A stretch of 48,791 nt of DNA from Acidimicrobiia bacterium (GTDB lineage Bacteria; Actinomycetota; Acidimicrobiia; Spongiisociales; UBA5794). The position numbers and the translations under genes were made by a program. The notes below the pieces were generated by a model. It ran no database searches. It saw only the letters and a list, made by a program, of their open reading frames with translations, and was not told the DNA's origin. Below are positions 18,920 through 44,332 of this stretch, one piece after another; position 1 is the first letter of the stretch; each line of letters starts with the position of its first letter. The DNA lies in contig JAOZRW010000013.1 in assembly GCA_029939995.1 (NCBI GenBank), positions 1 through 48,791 of the forward strand. Direction: 5' to 3'.

Positions 18920-21052
18920 CTACCCCGCGGTCGGCTCGGCATCGTCCGTCTCGGCGACTTCCGCCTCCGCGTCTTCCTCGATCACGCCGACGGCCCGGAG
19001 GACCTGGTCCTGGAGTTGAACTGCAAGTTGAGGGTTCTCCCTGAGGAAGAGCTTCGCCTTCTCACGGCCCTGTCCGAGCTGATCCCCGTCGTAGGTGTAC
19101 CAGGCGCCCGCCTTCTTGACGATGCCCTCTTCGACGGCGACGTCGAGCAGGCTTCCCTCCCGGGAGATCCCCTCGCCGAACATGATGTCGAACTCTGCAA
19201 GGCGGAACGGCGGAGCGACCTTGTTCTTGGCGATCTTCGCTCGGACCCGGTTCCCGACGTTGTCGGTTCCCGACTTGATCGCCTCGATCCTCCGAACGTC
19301 GATACGGACGCTCGCGTAGAACTTGAGGGCACGCCCACCCGGGGTCGTCTCAGGTGAATTGTGCACCATCACGCCGTCGACCAGGTAGTTGTGATGCCCC
19401 TCGACCTCGAGGTCGAACTTCCGCATCGAGCGCGTGGCCGGTTTCTCGTGGATGTCGACGATGGGGACGGGTGTGAGATTCATCCGTTCGATGGCCGGCT
19501 CGACATACACCGCATAGCGGCCGCGATGATGCCGCAGCAGCTTGTACGACATGGCCTCGGGAACGTACGGGGCGATGAGCGCGTGCAACGCCTCGGTACC
19601 GTCCTTGTCGAACACGATGACGGCCTTGCCCGCCCGGTCCTTGAGCCCGCATGAGAGCCCGTACGTGTCGTTCAGGAGTTGAACGAGACGGGTCCTGGAC
19701 GTGCGTTCCATCGCTTCGACGCAGACGTCGGAGCGCCCGGCAGAGCCGTCGATCCGACGCTCGGCGAATGTCCCATCGTCCATGTACCAGACCGCGAGGG
19801 CGAAGGGTGTGAGCTCCTTGAGATAGTCCCAACTGAATACCTTCTTGTCGCCGACGTACACGGCATCCCGAAGGCCGTCGAGTTCGACCAGCGGTGTCGT
19901 CTCGACCATCAGGCCACCCTTCGCATGCGGGCTGATGCCGAGGGGGACGCCTTCGAGCAGCGACGCCTTCCACCGTGCATAGTCATCCTGCTTGGGGCCG
20001 TGACCGAAACGGAACCGGGACTTCATCGTCACGCCGACCTCGTGAACCGGTTTGGGAGAGATCGACCCGTCTCCCATGAGCCCTCCGAGAACGAGTTGGC
20101 GTTGCTGATCGGACAGGTAGTGCTTCATCGGCATCAGGACCGAGTCCCCGACCGCGAGATCCCCCGCCTCCCGCCAACCCATCGGCGTTGCGATCTTGTG
20201 CGGCTCCGTCGCGGCGAACTGGGCCCTGCCGTTCCCCTCCGGCTTGTAGACCGTGAACTGCAGGAAGCGCTCGGCGTTGCCGTTGTCGAACCAGTTCACG
20301 ACTCGTGCCGGCTCGACCTTGCCTGTCTCGGGATCGACGGCGAGAACCTCGACGGGAAGCTTCTGGTTGACGATCTTGCCGATCTTCTCCTGCGTTCCGT
20401 CGGCGAGCGTCACCCGGGTTCCGTACTGGAAGCAGCCGAACATCACACCGATCTTCTCGCGAAGCTGGTTGATGAAGATGACGGTCGTGTGAGAGCGGTT
20501 GACGGTCCCGGCCAGTTTCCGCAGGGCCTGGGACATGAGACGGGCCTGGAGACCGACGTGGGTGTCCCCCATGTCTCCTTCGAGCTCGGCGCGCGGCACG
20601 AGGGCTGCGACCGAATCGATGACCACGATGTCGAGCGCCCCGGATCGGATCAGCATGTCGGTGATCTCGAGCGCCTGCTCCCCCGTGTCCGGCTGGGAGA
20701 TGAGCAGTTCGTCGACGTCGACACCGATCGCCCTGGCGTAGACGGGGTCGAGGGCATGCTCGGCGTCGATGAACGCGGCGAGGCCGCCGTTGCGCTGCGC
20801 TTCGGCGACGATGTGCAGAGCGAGGGTCGTCTTCCCCGAGCTCTCAGGCCCGTAGATCTCGACGATGCGTCCGCGGGGCACCCCGCCGATGCCGAGTGCG
20901 AGATCGAGCGAGAGGGCTCCGGTGGGGATCGAGTCCATCATACGGATCTCTTCGTCGCCCATTCTCATGATGGCGCCCTTGCCGAATTGCCGTTCGATCT
21001 GGGACATCGCCATCTCGATGTTCTTGTCCCGGTCTTTGTGGTCCTGGGCCAC
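18920..21052 (-). CDS. recA: recombinase RecA precursor with intein
   Basis: A 710-residue precursor. Residues 1-206 and 566-710 together make a normal 351-residue RecA: Walker A GPESSGKT (68-75), [12 protein letters not shown], the L2-region [12 protein letters not shown], then [18 protein letters not shown] and an acidic C-terminus. Residues 207-565 are an in-frame intein after the Gly of GVMFG. RecA drives strand exchange and triggers LexA self-cleavage. The GTG at 21052 has AAGGAG 5 nt upstream. Two control elements precede it: a RecA-NDp-like motif at 21079-21102 and a LexA box at 21156-21169. No recX follows. Confidence 0.97.
19358..20434 (-). mobile_element. RecA intein with LAGLIDADG homing endonuclease
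   Basis: A 359-residue class 1 intein. It begins with Cys ([13 protein letters not shown], block A) and has a TEPHKIAT block B. A two-motif LAGLIDADG endonuclease follows ([11 protein letters not shown] at about 114-124, [12 protein letters not shown] at about 212-223). It ends with block F ([13 protein letters not shown]) and block G (VMVHN, then Ser as +1 residue). All splicing residues are intact. The insertion point after GVMFG is the one I recall for the Mycobacterium leprae RecA intein, not the M. tuberculosis site further downstream. The intact endonuclease acids (Asp in both motifs) suggest recent or continuing mobility. Confidence 0.96.
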
Positions 21053-27090: not shown

Positions 27091-29358
27091 TCATCCGATC
27101 AGGGCCGGGAGCTCCTCTTCGGTGACGAGCACCGACCGGGCCTTCGATCCTTCGGACGGGCCGACGATGCCCTTGTTCTCCATGATGTCCATCACCCGTC
27201 CCGCCCGCGCGAAGCCGATCCGCAGCTTGCGCTGCAACATCGATGTGGAGCCGAGCTGGCTGCGCACGACGAGCTCGATCGCCTGGCGGATGATCTCGGG
27301 GTCCTCCCCCTCGAAGTCCTCTGCCACGTCGGCCGCCTGTTTCGCCGCTTCGAACACCTCGGCGTCCCGGTAGGCGGCCCGCCGCTGGTCCCGAATGAAC
27401 TCGACGATCCGATGAACCTCGCGTTCCGAGACCCAGGCGCCCTGAATCCGCTCCGGCTTCGGCTCCCGTGCCGTGACGACGAGCATGTCGCCGAGACCGA
27501 CGAGCTTCTCCGCTCCTCCCTGATCGATGATCACACGCGAGTCGGTCTGTGAAGCGACCGAGAACGCGAGGCGGGAGGGGACGTTCGCTTTGATCACGCC
27601 GGTGATCACGTTCACCGATGGTCGCTGTGTCGCGAGCACCAGGTGGATACCGACGGCTCTCGCCATCTGGGCGATCCGAACGATCGAATCCTCGACGACG
27701 CGCCCGGCGACCATCATCAGGTCGTTCAACTCGTCCACGACCACCACGATGTACGGGAACCGATCGAACATCTCTTCGTCGAGACCGCCGGCGGCGTGTT
27801 TCTCCCGGTATGACTCGATGTCGCGCACACCCGCGTCGGCGAGCAGGTCGTAGCGGCGATCCATCTCGGCGACGGCCCACTGCAGTGCATCCGCCGCCTT
27901 CTTAGGGCTGGTGATGACGCGAGTCAGGAGGTGGGGGACGTCGTTGTACTGCCCGAGCTCCACCCGCTTCGGGTCGACGAGGATCAGGCGAACCTCATCC
28001 GGGGTGGCTCGCATGAGGATCGACGTCAGCAGGGCATTGAGACACGAGGACTTGCCGGCACCGGTCGCACCGGCGATGAGGACGTGCGGCAACTCGGTGA
28101 GACGCAGCATCCTGGCGCGCCCGCTGACGTCCTTACCGAGGGCGACGAGCATCGGGTCGTGGTCCTCAGACGCATCCGGGCCCCGCAAGATGTCACCGAG
28201 CGTGACCATCTGCCGGTGCCGGTTCGGAACTTCGATCCCGATGGCGCTCTTCCCGGGGATCGGGGCGAGGATCCGCACGTCCGGGGACGCGAGGGCGTAT
28301 GCGATGTCGTGCGACAGGTTCGTGACGCGAGAGACCTTGACGCCGGGAGCGAGCTCGATCTCGTAACGGGTGACGGTCGGACCGGGCACGATGCGCGTGA
28401 GACGGGCGTCGACTCCGTGTTGCGTCAATGCGTCCTGGAGCTCACCGGCCGTCTGCTCGAGGCTCGTGCGATCCGGGCCGGCCTCTCTCGACGACTCGAG
28501 GATGTCGAGCGGAGGGAGCACGTACCCGTCCCCCGACGCCGCTGCCGGTACCGGTGCCGGCAGCTGTTTCGGCTTCGGCTTCTTCGGTGCTCTGGTCGAA
28601 GCCTTCGGACCCTTCTTCGGAGCGGTCTTGGGCGTCTCGGCGACGGGGTCGTGCATCACGATCGGTGCGTCGACGGCCGCGTCGCTCTTCTTCGATCCGT
28701 CGTCGCTTCCGAATCCGATCAGCGTCTGGAAGTCTTTCAGATACGCGCCGATCGCGACGGCCACATCGCGAACGGTCGACCGTGTCAGGAGGAGCGTCCC
28801 GAGGGCCACGCCTGCGAACAAGACGATGAACGCTCCCCAGAATCCGATGATGCGCCGGAGCGGGAACGCGACCAATGCGCCGACCGCGCCGCCACTCTCT
28901 CTGACCTGGTCGACGTTGCCCGCCAGCGCGAGTGATCCGGTCATGAGATGGAACATGGCGAGCGATGAGACGAAGACGACCGTCACGCCGGCGATCAGCC
29001 GTCCTCGATCCTCGCTGCAACAGACGCTCATGAGCGACAGGCCGATGAGAGCGATGACCAACGGAACGACGTAGGCCCACATGCCGAACAGGAACCGCAG
29101 CACGCCGGAGATGGCGGCACCCACCGGGCCCGACAAACCGAGGAAGGAGAGCGCTACGAGCGCGGCCAGCACGATGAGCACCATGCCCCATACGTCGTCG
29201 CTCTGACGCGACAACCGGCCGCGGACCCGCTCCCGACCCGTCCGTAGCGCCCGGACGATCTTCGCTCGGAGCGAGATCCGTGGTTGTTTCTTCTTCGTCT
29301 TCTTCGGGGTTGCTTTGCTCCGCCCCGACGCCCCGCGGCTCTTGGTCCGCGTTGCCAT
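27091..29358 (-). CDS. ftsK: DNA translocase FtsK
   Basis: A 755-residue septal DNA pump for chromosome segregation. A basic N-terminus (KSRGASGRSKATPKKTKKK) is followed by four to five membrane helices (about 55-190), a Pro/Lys/Ala-rich linker (about 230-290), the RecA-like motor with Walker A GATGAGKSSCLNAL (near 430) and Walker B YIVVVVDELNDLM, and a C-terminal winged-helix gamma domain (SQLGSTSMLQRKLRIGFARAGRVMD) that reads polar KOPS sequences. The short linker makes it SpoIIIE-sized. ATG 29358 is preferred over ATG 29364 because the -10 box TATCGT is only 2 nt from the latter. Confidence 0.95.
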   Translation of the reverse strand: MATRTKSRGASGRSKATPKKTKKKQPRISLRAKIVRALRTGRERVRGRLSRQSDDVWGMVLIVLAALVALSFLGLSGPVGAAISGVLRFLFGMWAYVVPLVIALIGLSLMSVCCSEDRGRLIAGVTVVFVSSLAMFHLMTGSLALAGNVDQVRESGGAVGALVAFPLRRIIGFWGAFIVLFAGVALGTLLLTRSTVRDVAVAIGAYLKDFQTLIGFGSDDGSKKSDAAVDAPIVMHDPVAETPKTAPKKGPKASTRAPKKPKPKQLPAPVPAAASGDGYVLPPLDILESSREAGPDRTSLEQTAGELQDALTQHGVDARLTRIVPGPTVTRYEIELAPGVKVSRVTNLSHDIAYALASPDVRILAPIPGKSAIGIEVPNRHRQMVTLGDILRGPDASEDHDPMLVALGKDVSGRARMLRLTELPHVLIAGATGAGKSSCLNALLTSILMRATPDEVRLILVDPKRVELGQYNDVPHLLTRVITSPKKAADALQWAVAEMDRRYDLLADAGVRDIESYREKHAAGGLDEEMFDRFPYIVVVVDELNDLMMVAGRVVEDSIVRIAQMARAVGIHLVLATQRPSVNVITGVIKANVPSRLAFSVASQTDSRVIIDQGGAEKLVGLGDMLVVTAREPKPERIQGAWVSEREVHRIVEFIRDQRRAAYRDAEVFEAAKQAADVAEDFEGEDPEIIRQAIELVVRSQLGSTSMLQRKLRIGFARAGRVMDIMENKGIVGPSEGSKARSVLVTEEELPALIG

Positions 29359-29366
29359 TGGCATGA

Positions 29367-29372
29367 ACGATA
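29367..29372 (-). promoter_or_regulatory. -10 box TATCGT of ftsK (leaderless)
   Basis: Minus-strand TATCGT with 8 nt to ATG 29358; used to choose that start. Confidence 0.5.
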
Positions 29373-29503
29373 CCGCACTGTCTCGCAGATGGAAACCACC
29401 CTCGGCGCGATCCGTCGCGCTGAGAGTTACATCGATGTGATTTCCTCCCCGATCGGGAACCGCCGTTCCACGAGTTTCGCCCCAACCGACGGCCGGACGG
29501 GGG

Positions 29504-29509
29504 TATCCT
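29504..29509 (+). promoter_or_regulatory. -10 box TATCCT of the GUN4 gene (leaderless)
   Basis: TATCCT with 7 nt to ATG 29517. Divergent from the ftsK promoter. Confidence 0.5.
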
Positions 29510-29516
29510 GCGAGCC

Positions 29517-29984
29517 ATGTCCGACGTCACCTCCCCCTTGCGTGTCCTGCTCGCCGCCGGCGAGTGGCAGGCCGCCGATGCCGAAACCCGCCGGCTCCTG
29601 ATCGCCGACGCCGACGTGGGCGGCTACGTCGGGCTCGATCCCGACGAGGCCGCACGGATCGACTGCGGCTTGCTCCTGGCGATCGACGACGCCTGGGCCG
29701 GCGCGTCGGACGGCCGGTTCGGGTTGACCGCCCAATCCCGCATCCTCAACGAGGTTCGGGCCCGGGATCTCCCTCGCTCCGACACCTGGAGGATGTTCGG
29801 ACGAACCGTGGGATGGGTCGACGGCCGCGAATGGCTCGAGGAAGACGGTTTGCAATACGGGGCCGACGCACCGGCCGGCCATCTTCCGTGGATCCCCGGA
29901 ACGACTACCGCGGTCAACACGGGACGCGTCTACGAGGGATTCTTCCTCTTCTACGCCAGGTTCGCCGACTGCGCGGCGACCTGA
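29517..29984 (+). CDS. stand-alone GUN4-domain protein
   Basis: A 155-residue protein that is almost wholly a GUN4 domain: LRVLLAAGEWQAADAETRRLL (family: L-LLAAGxWKEADxET), IDCGLLLAIDDAWAGASDGRFG (family: CEDLRxIDxLWxxxSxGRFG), LTAQSRI, FGRTVGWVDGREWLEEDG and APAGHLPW (family: APxGHLP). GUN4 binds protoporphyrin IX and Mg-protoporphyrin and stimulates Mg-chelatase in oxygenic phototrophs. Nothing else in the window concerns chlorophyll, so here it may bind heme precursors or another tetrapyrrole. No membrane or signal segment. It is divergent from ftsK and convergent with an SDR gene, 16 bp away. Confidence 0.88.
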   Translation: MSDVTSPLRVLLAAGEWQAADAETRRLLIADADVGGYVGLDPDEAARIDCGLLLAIDDAWAGASDGRFGLTAQSRILNEVRARDLPRSDTWRMFGRTVGWVDGREWLEEDGLQYGADAPAGHLPWIPGTTTAVNTGRVYEGFFLFYARFADCAAT

Positions 29985-30000: not shown

Positions 30001-30945
30001 TCACGGGCATCCGCGGGAGACGAGACCCGCCACGTCGAACTCGATGCCGGTCGCCTCTTCCGAGAGATCCCAGAGCAGCGTTGCATCCTCGGCCCGATTG
30101 CTGCGGCCGGTGATCGGCCGGCGAACGGCGGCCCCCGCCGTCACCCACTTCGGCGTGTAGATGCCTCCGCCGCGAGCGAGCGGGTCCGTCGCCGCCCGGA
30201 GTTGGGGTCGAGCTCCGCGGTCCGGTGGCATCCCGATCCACGCCGCTGCTCTCTCGAAGAAACGCTGGCTCGCCCCACCGGAGGATCGAACGCTCTGCGC
30301 CTGCAGATCGGTGTTGGACAATCCCGGGTGCGCAGCGAAGCTCCGGACCGTGGATCCGGCGTCGACGAGTCGCCGATCGAGCTCGAGGGCGAAGTCCATG
30401 TTCGCCTTCTTCGCCCTGCCGTACGCCCCCCAGGGCGTGTAATTCACATCGAGGTTCAGATCGTCTCGGTCGAGCCGGGTCCTGAAGTGCCTGGCCGTGC
30501 TGGTGACGGTCACGATCCTCGCGTCGGTTCCGCATAGGAGAGCCGGCATCAGCAGAGCGGTCAGTGCGAAGTGGCCGAGATGGTTCGTTCCGAATTGGAG
30601 CTCGAAACCGTCTTCGGTCTCCTGATGCGGTGTGGCCATCACCCCGGCGTTGTTGACGAGGAGATCGATCCGGGGGTGCGCTGCGACGACATCGGCGGCG
30701 AAACTACGCACCGATGCGAGGGAAGCAAGATCCAGCGGATACATCTCCAGGAGAGCATCGGGGATCGTCGAGAGGATCTCTGTTCTCGCTCGCTCGGCCT
30801 TCTCGAGGTTCCGGACCCCCATGATGACGAGGGCGCCGTGTCGCGCGAGTTCCTTCGCCGTTTCGAGACCGAGGCCGCCGTTCGCTCCCGTGACTACGGC
30901 GACGCGGCCCGTCAGGTCCGGGATGTCGTCCGGTGTCCATGCCAT
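30001..30945 (-). CDS. SDR family NAD(P)-dependent oxidoreductase
   Basis: A 314-residue short-chain dehydrogenase with the cofactor motif TGANGGLG (19-26), NNAGVM (98-103) and the catalytic Ser149, Tyr175 and Lys179 (AYGRAKKAN). The length and NHLGHFALTALLMP pattern put it with the retinol dehydrogenase / WW-oxidoreductase / protochlorophyllide-reductase-like branch, commonly annotated only as oxidoreductase. Substrate unknown. AGAGAGG lies 7 nt before the ATG. It follows rnj by 37 bp on the same strand, so it may be the last gene of dapA-rnj-SDR, and is convergent with the GUN4 gene. Confidence 0.9.
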   Translation of the reverse strand: MAWTPDDIPDLTGRVAVVTGANGGLGLETAKELARHGALVIMGVRNLEKAERARTEILSTIPDALLEMYPLDLASLASVRSFAADVVAAHPRIDLLVNNAGVMATPHQETEDGFELQFGTNHLGHFALTALLMPALLCGTDARIVTVTSTARHFRTRLDRDDLNLDVNYTPWGAYGRAKKANMDFALELDRRLVDAGSTVRSFAAHPGLSNTDLQAQSVRSSGGASQRFFERAAAWIGMPPDRGARPQLRAATDPLARGGGIYTPKWVTAGAAVRRPITGRSNRAEDATLLWDLSEEATGIEFDVAGLVSRGCP

Positions 30946-30982: not shown

Positions 30983-32611
30983 TCAGACTTCGATGACGAC
31001 CGGGATGACGACGGGCCGGCGCTTGATGCGGCTCTGAACGGCTTTTCGTCCCGCATTCCGGATGCGGCGTCGCAGCGCGTCGGGATCGATGGGTCGATCG
31101 AGTGTGGCGATTCCCTGCTCGACCCGCGCCTTGACGGCGTCGTGGAGTTCCTTCGAGTCGCCGGTGACGCCGTGGCTGTCGACGTCGGGACCGAACACGA
31201 TGTCACCCTTCCTGATGTCGACGCCGACCGTGATCAGCATGACACCGTCGTCGGCGAGGTGCCGCCGATCGCGGATGACCCCCTCGGACTCTCCAACCTC
31301 GAGGCCGTCGACGTAGACGTAGCCCGCCGAGACCGCTCCCCGCTCCACACTGATCCGGCCGTTGTCGAGAACGACGACGTCGCCGTCGGAGCACACTTCG
31401 ACCTCCGGGATACCGACCGACCGGGCGAGCTCGGCGTTCGCGTGCATGTGCCGGTGTTCCCCGTGGACCGGAACCATCGCCTGGGGCTTGATGACGTTGT
31501 AGAGGACCTTCAACTCCTCGGCGGCGGCATGCCCGGACACGTGCACGTGCGTGTTGCGGCCGTGATGGACCGTGACGCCGAGTCGCGACAGGTTGTTGAT
31601 CACCCGCGACACCCGCTTCTCGTTCCCGGGAATCGGCGTCGCCGAGATGATCACCGTGTCGCTCGGATCGAGGGTGATCGATCGGTGCTCCCCCGCCGCC
31701 ATGAGCGACAGGGCGGCGAACGGCTCCCCCTGGCTTCCGGTCGAGATGACCGCCGCCTCGCCGGCCGGAAGGGCAAGCAGCTCGGCGAGCTCTACGAGGC
31801 TCCCGTCCGGGATGCTGAGCGCACCGATCGGTTCGGCGATCTCGCTGTTGCGCAACATCGATCGTCCGATGAACGCGAACTTGCGTCCGTCGGCGACCAC
31901 GGCGTCGATCGACTGCTGCACCCGGTGCAGATGGCTGGCGAAGCAGGCGACGAGGACCCGGCCCTCCGCCTCGTGCACGAGTTCGGCGATCCGCACACCG
32001 ACCGTCTTCTCCGAATCGACGACGCCGGGACGTTCGGCGTTGGTGGAATCGGCGAGCAGGAGCCGAACACCTCTGCGGCCGAAGCCGGCGAAGCTCTGCA
32101 GATCGGTGATCACGCCGTCGATGGGTGTCGGATCGAGTTTGATGTCCCCCGTGTGGAGGATGATGCCTTCGGGGGTCTCGAATGCGATCGCCGTGGCGTC
32201 CGGCACCGAGTGGGTCACGGGGATGAACGCGAAGCGGAACCGTCCGTGTTCGATCCAGGTTCCGGTTTCGACGACGCGGAAATCGGCGTCGATCCCGAGT
32301 TCGGAGACCCGGGCCCGCGCGAGTTCGACCGTCAGAAGCGTTCCGTACACCGGCACGTTGGCTTCGCGTAGGAGGTATCCGAGCGAACCGATGTGGTCCT
32401 CGTGACCGTGTGTCAGCGCCACGAAGGAGAGATCACCCGGCCCCTCGAAGACCGACGTGAAGTCCGGGAGGACGAGGTCGACGCCGAGCATGTCCTCCTC
32501 GGGGAACATCAGCCCCGCATCGACCATGGCCATCTCTCCGTCGATGTCGATCGTCGCGCAGTTCCTGCCGATCTCTCCGAGACCGCCGTGGAAGGCGACC
32601 CGGACGCTCAT
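30983..32611 (-). CDS. rnj: ribonuclease J
   Basis: A 542-residue metallo-beta-lactamase/beta-CASP nuclease with 5'-3' exo- and endonuclease activity in rRNA and mRNA processing. It has the zinc motif LTHGHEDHIG (H68, H70, D72, H73), THSVPDATAIAF, LHTGDIKLD, the beta-CASP segment with STGSQGEP and HVSGHAAAEEL, PVHGEHRHM and a C-terminal domain ending in basic residues. The ATG at 32611 overlaps the dapA stop (ATGA). The dapA-rnj pair is conserved in actinobacteria. Confidence 0.96.
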   Translation of the reverse strand: MSVRVAFHGGLGEIGRNCATIDIDGEMAMVDAGLMFPEEDMLGVDLVLPDFTSVFEGPGDLSFVALTHGHEDHIGSLGYLLREANVPVYGTLLTVELARARVSELGIDADFRVVETGTWIEHGRFRFAFIPVTHSVPDATAIAFETPEGIILHTGDIKLDPTPIDGVITDLQSFAGFGRRGVRLLLADSTNAERPGVVDSEKTVGVRIAELVHEAEGRVLVACFASHLHRVQQSIDAVVADGRKFAFIGRSMLRNSEIAEPIGALSIPDGSLVELAELLALPAGEAAVISTGSQGEPFAALSLMAAGEHRSITLDPSDTVIISATPIPGNEKRVSRVINNLSRLGVTVHHGRNTHVHVSGHAAAEELKVLYNVIKPQAMVPVHGEHRHMHANAELARSVGIPEVEVCSDGDVVVLDNGRISVERGAVSAGYVYVDGLEVGESEGVIRDRRHLADDGVMLITVGVDIRKGDIVFGPDVDSHGVTGDSKELHDAVKARVEQGIATLDRPIDPDALRRRIRNAGRKAVQSRIKRRPVVIPVVIEV

Positions 32612-41120: not shown

Positions 41121-43331
41121 ATGCGCGCGCAGAACGAAACATTCCTCGCCGAGGTGCTCCCCCCGGAGGATCGGGTCATCGAGGCCGTCGTTGCCCGATA
41201 TCAAAGGGTCGCGCCGGCCGTCACGCGTTTCGCTCGAAGCATCGCCGGGAATGAGGAGCTTCGTGTTCGGCTCGGATCGCAGGCGTCGGCGTCGAAGGAC
41301 GAGATCGTCATCGATCCCGGCGTGTTCCAGGCGGCGTATTCGAGAAGCGCACCGGTGACGCCCACCGAAGTGGCGTTGACGTCCGCTCTGCACGAGGCGA
41401 TCCACCTCATCGCCACCGACCTCGACGAAGAGCGGCCGATCCCCGAGTCGTGGCTGGCGCACCATCGCTCGCTCGAGGACGACGGTGCCGAGGCCCCTCC
41501 CCTGGCAGAGCTCACGTCCTACGACTGGTCGGAGCCGGAAGCATCTATCGAGAACGAGCCGATCGAAGAGGACCTCCACGCCGACGGCCTCGTCGGGGCA
41601 TCGACGGGGGCGGTCGCTCTCCTCGATGCACTCAACACGGTCGCCGGCCCTGCAGCGGAAGCGATGTTCCTCTCGATCGAAGACGCCCGCCAGGAACGCC
41701 GCCACCTCGCCCACTTCCCCGGAGCCCGTTCGGTCCTCTCCGACCTCTACCGGGCGGCCGTCCCCGGGGCATCCGCGAACGCCCGGCCGCTCGGGCAGTA
41801 CGCCCTGGCTTGCTTCCTCATCGTCGGCGACTATTTCACGACGGATGATCTCCAGCGACGGGTCTCCCCGCACGTGGCGCTGGCCATCGGCGACGCGGAG
41901 CCGTTCCTCGCTCCCGTCGACGATCTCGACGATCCGTGGGCCGTCGGCGGCGTCGCCTTGCAACTCGTCGAAGTCGCCCGCATGCACGGTCTCCTGACGG
42001 AAGGGGCCGCATCGGACTCCGCCGTCGGCCGCAAGGGCGAGATGCAATCCGATCAGTCCGCCATCGCCGAGGGGGTCGACGCCGTACGCATCGTCACTCC
42101 GCCGCTCGCCGATCGCGAGCATTACGACGAGACGCGCCAGGCCGCACAATCGGTCTCCGCGGAGGAGGGACGTCACGGCGACGTGGATCAGGCGGGAGAT
42201 CCCGCCGCGGATCAGCTGATGAAAGTGTCCACGGCGCCGACCGTGTACCTGCCTACGGGCCAGTCCGGGAAGCTCGTCGTCGGCGGCTTTCCCATGGAGT
42301 TCAGACGGTTCTCCGCGGAGGGGCGCGACCTGCTCACGAACGCCGCCCGAGAATGGGGCGTCGCCCAGCATCGTGTCTCCGGAGAGCTGTATCCCCTCTT
42401 CCTCGCCAATCAGCGACGCGGTCTGCGCACCGGCTTCGATGCGGGGGATCTCTCGCCCTACACGCCGCTGCTCCTCGGCGCCGGCCTGTACGAGCGGATG
42501 TTCGAGCGGAGGGATCTCCCGAATCGCCGTTCGTACGGGGTCAGCCTCCTCGTGGACGGCTCGGCTTCGATGCTTCAGCCCCGCGAGATGCGGGCCGGCC
42601 GCAAACGGCCGTGGGCGTTGGCGTCCGCCACGCTCGGAGCCTGGACGCTCGCCCGCCTCGCAGACGAGCTCCAGATCGAGTTCGAAGTCGCCATCTTCAA
42701 CCGCGGGTTCGTCGCCGCCGTCGGCGACACGGAGCGGACGTTCACGGAACGCCGGGGACGGGCGACCGGGGCGCTGCGCCGCTCGCAGGGCGGTTCCGCC
42801 GAACGTCTCACACGCACGGTCAATCACTACATCGTCAAGTCCTTCTCCGATCGATGGCGCGCAGCCGAGGACGTGCTCGCCGGTCTCTTCTGGATGGCTG
42901 CGACGCCGCAGGACGCCGCCAAGGAAGCCAGGAAGGAGCCGGCAACGGCCCCCCCGATCTCCATGTTCGACAAGGCCGCCAACGTCGACGAGTTCAACCT
43001 CGCATACGCCGCTCAGCGGCTCGCCTCGCGCAACGTCTCGCATCGAATCCTCGTCGTCCTGGCGGACGGCATGACCCGCGGCTCGGTCGAGGCGCTCGCG
43101 GAAACCGTCGAATCGATCGAGCGCGGCGGGACCATGGTGCTCGGCATCGGCATCGGTGACGAGACGGTCCAGGCGGCCTACGGCCGCAACCGGGTCGTGG
43201 AGCGACCCGAAACACTTGCGACGGCCATGGTCGACGGCGTCCGATCCGCCCTCTTCCGCTCGATCGCCGACGAAGGTGGGGGCACGTGGTGGAGCCAAGC
43301 AGCAGAACCAACCGCTCAACTCATCAGTTAG
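41121..43331 (+). CDS. VWA-domain protein with N-terminal HExxH motif (CobT/NorD/DUF2201-like)
   Basis: 736 residues. The N-terminal part has a zincin-type motif, ALHEAIHLIATD (H91-E92, H95), then FLSIEDARQERRH (about 183-195), the IED-R-E signature shared with CobT and NorD/CbbO proteins. An acidic, low-complexity linker (about 295-370) leads to a C-terminal VWA domain with the MIDAS start LLVDGSASM (D479, S481, S483) and later VVLADGMTRG. VWA proteins of this type pair with MoxR/CobS-class AAA+ ATPases to insert metals or remodel target proteins, and the AAA+ partner follows 8 nt later. Whether it is a peptidase, a chelatase-like subunit or both is unknown. Confidence 0.88.
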   Translation: MRAQNETFLAEVLPPEDRVIEAVVARYQRVAPAVTRFARSIAGNEELRVRLGSQASASKDEIVIDPGVFQAAYSRSAPVTPTEVALTSALHEAIHLIATDLDEERPIPESWLAHHRSLEDDGAEAPPLAELTSYDWSEPEASIENEPIEEDLHADGLVGASTGAVALLDALNTVAGPAAEAMFLSIEDARQERRHLAHFPGARSVLSDLYRAAVPGASANARPLGQYALACFLIVGDYFTTDDLQRRVSPHVALAIGDAEPFLAPVDDLDDPWAVGGVALQLVEVARMHGLLTEGAASDSAVGRKGEMQSDQSAIAEGVDAVRIVTPPLADREHYDETRQAAQSVSAEEGRHGDVDQAGDPAADQLMKVSTAPTVYLPTGQSGKLVVGGFPMEFRRFSAEGRDLLTNAAREWGVAQHRVSGELYPLFLANQRRGLRTGFDAGDLSPYTPLLLGAGLYERMFERRDLPNRRSYGVSLLVDGSASMLQPREMRAGRKRPWALASATLGAWTLARLADELQIEFEVAIFNRGFVAAVGDTERTFTERRGRATGALRRSQGGSAERLTRTVNHYIVKSFSDRWRAAEDVLAGLFWMAATPQDAAKEARKEPATAPPISMFDKAANVDEFNLAYAAQRLASRNVSHRILVVLADGMTRGSVEALAETVESIERGGTMVLGIGIGDETVQAAYGRNRVVERPETLATAMVDGVRSALFRSIADEGGGTWWSQAAEPTAQLIS

Positions 43332-43339
43332 GAGCATCC

Positions 43340-44332
43340 ATGACGAAGACCGTCACGTTCGAAGACCCGACCGGGTTCGGTGAGCCGATCACGCTCATCA
43401 AGGGATCGGTGCCGGAAGATCTCCCCGATGCGAAGACGCGTCTCGATCACATCCCGGCACCGGACCCCTACTACGTCGATCTCGGGATGCTGTACCGTCT
43501 CGCCGCGCTCGAGCGGGTTCGGGAACGCCGCTTCACCGGGATCCCGCTCCATCTGGCTTTGCGCGGGCACATGGGGACCGGCAAGGACCATGATCTCGAA
43601 CAGTTCGCCGCCCTCCTCGAGATTCCCTACTACCGGATCCCGCTGACCGGTGAGGTACGGGACATCACGCTCATCGGCTCGGTGAAGCTCCACGGCGACG
43701 GCAAAGGCGGCACGGAGAGCCGGTGGGAGGATGGAGACATCACCCGTGCGCTCCGGGGACCGGCCCTCGTGAATCTGTCGGAGCTGAACGCGGCGGGGGC
43801 CGAGACCCTCTTCGCCCTCCATGGCCTCCTCGACCGTCACCAGGCTCTCGAGTTGCCGACGGGCGAGCTCGTGAGGCTCCGGTCCGACGTGCGCATCTTC
43901 GGCACGCTCAACCCGACCGACCTTCGCGACTACGCCGGGACGCAGACGCTCAACAAGGCGTTCTCGGACAGGTGGATCATCTGGGAAAAGGAGTTCCCTG
44001 CAGAAGAAGAGCTCCGGACGATGATCGAACGGCGCCACCCGACGATGAAGCGCGAGGTAGTCGAGCTCATCTCGAAGCTCGCGGTCGAGCTGAACGAGTC
44101 GTTCACGTCCACCGACACCCGGACACGCGTTGAGACGCCGATGAGCCTGCGAACGGTCCTCGACCGGATCCCCGCAGGCCTCGACATGTACTCGGCCGCG
44201 GAGGATCCGCTTCGCCGGTCGTGGGAAGAGTTCGTGCTTCCGCACATCGACCCGTACGATCGTGATCATTACGAGACCGTATGGGCGGCGGTCGTCCGCC
44301 GCGGTCCGTCCGGCCCGCCGTTTTCCAAGTAG
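43340..44332 (+). CDS. MoxR/CobS-class AAA+ protein with altered Walker motifs
   Basis: 330 residues. The AAA+ core matches CobS-like proteins (LRGHMGTGK-xxxLEQFA, then SELNAAGAETLFALHGLLD and FGTLNPTD with the sensor-1 Asn). The P-loop reads GHMGTGKD, with Asp83 where Mg2+-binding Thr/Ser is expected. Walker B reads LVNLSEL, with Ser147 in place of the Mg2+-binding Asp; the catalytic Glu148 is kept. Both were checked in the nucleotides. ATP binding through Lys82 may remain, but hydrolysis is doubtful. GGAG lies 5 nt before ATG 43340. Operon with the VWA gene upstream and yajQ 9 nt downstream. Confidence 0.87.
   Translation: MTKTVTFEDPTGFGEPITLIKGSVPEDLPDAKTRLDHIPAPDPYYVDLGMLYRLAALERVRERRFTGIPLHLALRGHMGTGKDHDLEQFAALLEIPYYRIPLTGEVRDITLIGSVKLHGDGKGGTESRWEDGDITRALRGPALVNLSELNAAGAETLFALHGLLDRHQALELPTGELVRLRSDVRIFGTLNPTDLRDYAGTQTLNKAFSDRWIIWEKEFPAEEELRTMIERRHPTMKREVVELISKLAVELNESFTSTDTRTRVETPMSLRTVLDRIPAGLDMYSAAEDPLRRSWEEFVLPHIDPYDRDHYETVWAAVVRRGPSGPPFSK

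Follow-up and report, generated by a model that had tools for sequence, protein, structure and literature searches.

The gun4-like gene considered here lies within a contig of 48,791 nucleotides, referred to as the window, that belongs to a draft genome of 2.55 Mb with a completeness of 94%. The gene and its surroundings are laid out as follows.

27091 to 29364, minus strand: ftsK, the left edge of the insertion site, which adjoins rnj in family genomes without gun4.
29365 to 29516, no strand: the divergent ftsK-gun4 intergenic region of 152 bp, compared by alignment.
29517 to 29984, plus strand: the gun4-like gene, encoding 155 amino acids with the GUN4 domain at residues 6-126 followed by a C-terminal extension (PF05419, nine orthologs, dN/dS).
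29877 to 29906, plus strand: the GHLPWIPGTT stretch, residues 121-130, where alignments place GHLPLxNxLR in canonical GUN4.
30001 to 30945, minus strand: an SDR oxidoreductase of the PRK06197 subfamily, convergent with gun4 and not an LPOR.
30983 to 32611, minus strand: rnj, encoding RNase J, the right edge of the insertion site.

The window also carries, at 18920-21052 on the minus strand, a recA gene of 710 codons that is interrupted in frame by an intein, with both its N- and C-terminal intein regions matched and with a LAGLIDADG endonuclease (PF03161, E 8.7e-28); in a relative of the same genus (L021) recA encodes 398 amino acids and is intein-free.

The gun4-like frame runs uninterrupted from ATG to stop over 155 codons, and its product matches PF05419 with an E-value of 4.9e-21 and 75.8 bits, against a curated cut-off of 29.2 bits, across positions 9-125 of the 141 in the profile. 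As a single sequence it also finds the solved GUN4 proteins of Arabidopsis (4.8e-6) and Chlamydomonas (3.1e-5), and a profile of the actinobacterial sequences alone aligns with one of four canonical GUN4 proteins at 98.6% probability (hhalign, E 1.4e-15). These results bear out the first-pass annotation, which had read the frame as a 155-residue GUN4 protein, and it was equally correct in describing it as stand-alone and as belonging to an actinobacterium, here a member of the Acidimicrobiia. Beyond the GUN4 domain Pfam finds no second domain, and what follows is a short conserved extension, PGxxxxVNTGRxYEGFFLFYxRFxxC, at residues 127-155. The motifs on which the annotation had relied fare less evenly, since AADAET, SDGRFG, VGW and GHLPW are indeed present but VDGREW, together with the C-terminal NTGRxYEGF, is a trait of the actinobacterial clade and not of GUN4 in general. 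NCBIfam holds no model for the protein. An AlphaFold model built from a shallow alignment is of low confidence (mean pLDDT 51, pTM 0.42), and its top three PDB matches are all GUN4 chains at non-significant E-values of 0.25-0.65.

How widely is such a gene distributed? A survey spanning order, class and phylum samples of the Actinomycetota places GUN4 in all seven genomes of the window's genus and in two further family members, each of another genus. These nine are the only carriers above the cut-off among the 138 genomes of the order, no others appear among 395 genomes of the class, and in the phylum sample of 396 genomes the window's own genome is the sole carrier. A weak match in a further genome of the order (G396) was rejected, as its score is below the cut-off and the match extends over 50 residues of a dissimilar protein. 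The named relatives are metagenome-assembled genomes, four assigned to Acidimicrobiia and one to 'Actinomycetes', and two of the orthologs bear the CSMAG label of a cold-seep sediment genome catalogue (PMC10491686), making it unlikely that light is needed. An alignment of the nine copies has no internal gaps and 55 invariant columns; eight of the copies have a common start codon, the ninth beginning about two residues later. Within the genus dN/dS lies between 0.06 and 0.18, which identifies a real, selected gene as opposed to a chance reading frame.

In all seven members of the genus gun4 adjoins ftsK in divergent orientation, with rnj on the opposite side wherever the contig extends far enough. 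On the far side of gun4, four members, the window's genome among them, have the SDR gene; in two others (G472 and G476) it does not occur between gun4 and rnj, and in G474 the contig stops there. This SDR neighbour was considered as a protochlorophyllide reductase and rejected, as it scores 92 bits against an LPOR cut-off of 331, is of the PRK06197 type, and is absent from the site in the two genomes just named. In four GUN4-less family genomes (G489, G487, G449 and G455) rnj and ftsK are directly adjacent, and the comparison with the interrupted arrangement in the genus indicates that gun4 was gained at this site. In the two more distant carriers, from other genera (G488 and G482), GUN4 occupies sites other than ftsK-rnj, either adjoining the genes of a GNAT protein and an MMPL transporter or, close to the end of a contig, in the vicinity of a sulfate permease. 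The neighbours of gun4 are not conserved beyond the genus. Part of the intergenic region is itself conserved, namely a promoter-like block upstream of ftsK at 29365-29450; in the direction of gun4 it reads GATACC...GAACCACCCT...GCGCGA...GAGTTACA. Because the ftsK-proximal elements also align in G489, the family member without gun4, the block belongs with ftsK, for which it is likely to be a promoter or regulatory element.

A maximum-likelihood tree of 31 GUN4 domains over 119 columns, in which the cyanobacterial paralogs are plasmid-borne only, gathers the nine actinobacterial copies into one clade (support 100/99) and joins this clade at 100/98 to a Leptolyngbya WD40-GUN4 and two Nostocaceae ankyrin-GUN4 proteins. 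The four canonical GUN4s group separately (96/94), so that the phylogeny proposed in the first-pass annotation sets the actinobacterial clade among the ankyrin and WD40 paralogs and apart from the canonical proteins. With canonical GUN4 (Synechocystis sll0558, PDB 1Y6I and 7E2T; Arabidopsis 7E2R; Chlamydomonas 4YKB) the window protein has in common the domain over residues 6-126 and the elements ADxxT, LxxIDxxW, SxGxFGxxxQ, GW and APxGHLP; unlike them, it has no LxNxLR motif, no equivalents of F191, R211 or W192, a different C-terminal segment, no extra N-terminal domain and no ChlH in its genome. The closest relatives found, at 39-44% identity, are the ankyrin- and WD40-GUN4 proteins of Trichormus (WP_236577847.1), Nostoc (WP_258169874.1) and Leptolyngbya (WP_198808484.1), which likewise have GHLPW and no LxNxLR; in these the domain sits within a long repeat protein and has an insert after GHLPW, whereas the window protein is shorter and stands alone. 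Together the tree and the missing canonical motifs define the window protein as a paralog-type GUN4. All 25 plasmid records that match it are cyanobacterial. The gene is most naturally read as one transferred from cyanobacteria, with the direction presumed and the donor lineage uncertain given a paralog sample drawn from plasmids only. A phage or viral origin was rejected, as relatives were found neither in phages nor on viral contigs. Among the plasmid copies, one of 207 amino acids on Acaryochloris marina plasmid pREC2 (L035, 2306-2929) is encoded within an RND efflux operon, where the adaptor gene and the permease gene flank it, and a gene for a hexameric tyrosine-coordinated heme protein is nearby.

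What such a protein may bind depends on the residues that line the canonical site. Full porphyrin affinity of Arabidopsis GUN4 requires F191 and R211 (PMC8967248), and the Asn of LxNxLR is required for bilin binding, the motif being missing in cyanobacterial paralogs (PMC10156173); the cyanobacterial plasmid GUN4s aligned here lack it too. In residue correspondences counted by hand from printed alignments, Synechocystis L209-R214 (LLNQLR) falls on window W125-T130 (WIPGTT), such that the bilin-binding Asn becomes P127 and the porphyrin-binding Arg, Arabidopsis R211, becomes T130; Arabidopsis F191, equivalent to Synechocystis F196, becomes L112, and a deletion of one residue removes the counterpart of Synechocystis W192. 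A porphyrin or heme ligand is possible, but the lost residues weaken the case for it. A bilin made by the cell was rejected as ligand, since none of the GUN4-carrying genomes has a heme oxygenase (PF01126) and the heme oxygenase route to bilin is consequently closed.

Eight of the nine carriers have a heme-copper oxidase and seven lack matches for ALA dehydratase and ferrochelatase, and it is on these grounds that heme becomes the leading ligand candidate, although some of the missing matches may be assembly gaps given that the two genes lie less than 5 kb apart in G000 and G473. However, ALA dehydratase, present in two of the nine carriers and in 11 of the 41 GUN4-less family genomes, is missing equally often without GUN4 (30/41), and a link between heme and GUN4 hence finds no statistical support. 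The hem gene search that the first-pass annotation had suggested accordingly led to the rejection of any association with heme synthesis, there being no co-occurrence across the family. Regardless of GUN4, ALA dehydratase is found in 13 of the 50 family genomes (two of seven in the genus) and heme-copper oxidase in 48, a distribution that suggests widespread heme auxotrophy in this family of Acidimicrobiia.

Could the protein nevertheless be a true porphyrin or heme binder, a cytosolic buffer or carrier for heme or coproporphyrin that resembles GUN4 in its handling of protoporphyrin but relies on non-canonical residues? Membership of the GUN4 family speaks for this, as does the non-conservative N219G variant of Chlamydomonas GUN4, which still bound porphyrin (PMC10156173), and the carriers combine an evident need for heme with a biosynthetic deficit that may be covered by import. 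Set against this are the aliphatic and non-Arg replacements of F191 and R211, the absent W192, the failure of GUN4 to track heme synthesis, and the lack of any hem gene near gun4, which leave such a dedicated binder an unlikely, if still the strongest, alternative.

Less probable again is that ligand binding has been lost altogether, so that the protein would serve purely to contact other proteins or would be a component of a conflict- or defence-type system. In cyanobacteria GUN4 is fused to kinases, caspases and proteins of MoxR-vWA systems, the window protein belongs to the same clade as the ankyrin and WD40 fusions, its key ligand residues are missing, and it gives a match to the PADLOC profile PD-T4-6, over the C-terminal part of that profile, with an E-value of 1.4e-16. 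That match, however, probably only reflects kinase-GUN4 fusions within the profile; in the loci that were read, gun4 has no effector beside it, whether kinase, STAND, caspase or another, and stable inheritance across the genus under strong purifying selection is unlike the behaviour of a fast-turning defence gene. As PD-T4-6 apparently includes GUN4 fusions, it could give false defence calls elsewhere.

The best-known role of GUN4, activation of Mg-chelatase in phototrophs, raises the question of a chelatase partner, and the first-pass annotation had pointed to a CobS/CobT-like pair in the window. This pair, at 41121-44332, consists of a vWA-type protein, whose CobT_C match is weak and below the cut-off, and a MoxR-type AAA_5 protein (43286-44332, 13 kb from gun4). 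The AAA_5 gene belongs to the core of the family: 45 of the 50 genomes have it, most of them GUN4-less, and its occurrence irrespective of GUN4 makes the supposed link coincidental. The recommended search for chlH/bchH and cobN was equally unproductive, as PF02514 (ChlH/BchH/CobN) has no match in any of the 50 family genomes, the window's own and all nine carriers among them, in a search that was positive in five control genomes. As far as these genomes show, a role as Mg- or Co-chelatase cofactor is thereby excluded and the window GUN4 serves neither enzyme, which takes away the one target of GUN4 that has been studied well; with LxNxLR absent as well, action on a cobalt chelatase or another CobN/ChlH-type chelatase through the CobS/CobT-like pair has hardly any probability left. 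The description of the family as exclusively cyanobacterial and plastidic (PMC10156173, PMC8195603) might prompt suspicion of a cyanobacterial contig or a stray gene in the bin, but this practically negligible possibility is refuted by the placement of gun4 within a contig of 48.8 kb, flanked by ftsK on one side and by SDR/rnj on the other, by a GC content of 69% and GC3 of 85% that are like those of the neighbouring genes, and by its recurrence next to ftsK in the six other members of the genus.

With no chelatase to serve in these non-photosynthetic actinobacteria, and with a sequence diverged from the side-branch GUN4s, the protein must have another function, and a stand-alone domain of the paralog branch that has long been kept in chelatase-free cells has most likely retained the binding of a ligand or of a partner. 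The explanation that is somewhat favoured is a non-canonical single-domain GUN4, horizontally acquired and acting as a small regulator that binds a ligand or a partner. The gene, a member of the cyanobacterial paralog branch nearest to the ankyrin-GUN4 and WD40-GUN4 proteins, was gained between rnj and ftsK in an ancestor of the genus, most likely by a horizontal route, and purifying selection has retained it. Its product would most likely act as a small cytosolic regulator in which the GUN4 cup, with a floor rebuilt from GHLPWxPG...TGRxY and the new C-terminal segment, may bind a ligand such that binding alters contact with a partner protein, as is thought for the cyanobacterial domains in fusion with kinases, proteases or repeats. 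GUN4 domains fused to kinases, caspases, TIR domains and others have been proposed as allosteric tetrapyrrole sensors (PMC7159879). The conflict and signalling GUN4 proteins of cyanobacteria, with kinase, caspase, TIR or MoxR-vWA partners, resemble the window protein in their non-chelatase use (PMC7159879, PMC8195603), and differ from it in that the latter has no fused or adjacent effector and is not cyanobacterial. Heme or porphyrin would be the first candidate for the ligand, with the chances leaning against it.

The protein is notable in view of the range described for GUN4. A 2023 study found GUN4 apparently confined to oxygenic phototrophs and without a rigorous outgroup (PMC10156173), the family has been called cyanobacteria-specific (PMC8195603), and the same term has been applied to the GUN4 domains of conflict and signalling proteins (PMC7159879, PMC8195603). 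Compared with these papers, a GUN4 beyond the oxygenic phototrophs is a novelty, though not necessarily so compared with every database; since the actinobacterial proteins nest with paralogs they do not by themselves root the canonical GUN4 tree. A bolder reading, less likely than not, is a GUN4 function independent of both chelatases and photosynthesis, in the form of a self-standing cytosolic sensor of heme, porphyrin or another ligand that has become fixed in an actinobacterial lineage with members from dark sediments and, possibly, importers of heme. The window protein offers a small, single-domain representative of an uncharacterised paralog branch that in cyanobacteria occurs mostly within larger proteins, and a GUN4 under selection in chelatase-free actinobacteria amounts to a natural experiment, in which whatever binding has been retained would reveal those functions of the fold that are independent of Mg-chelatase.
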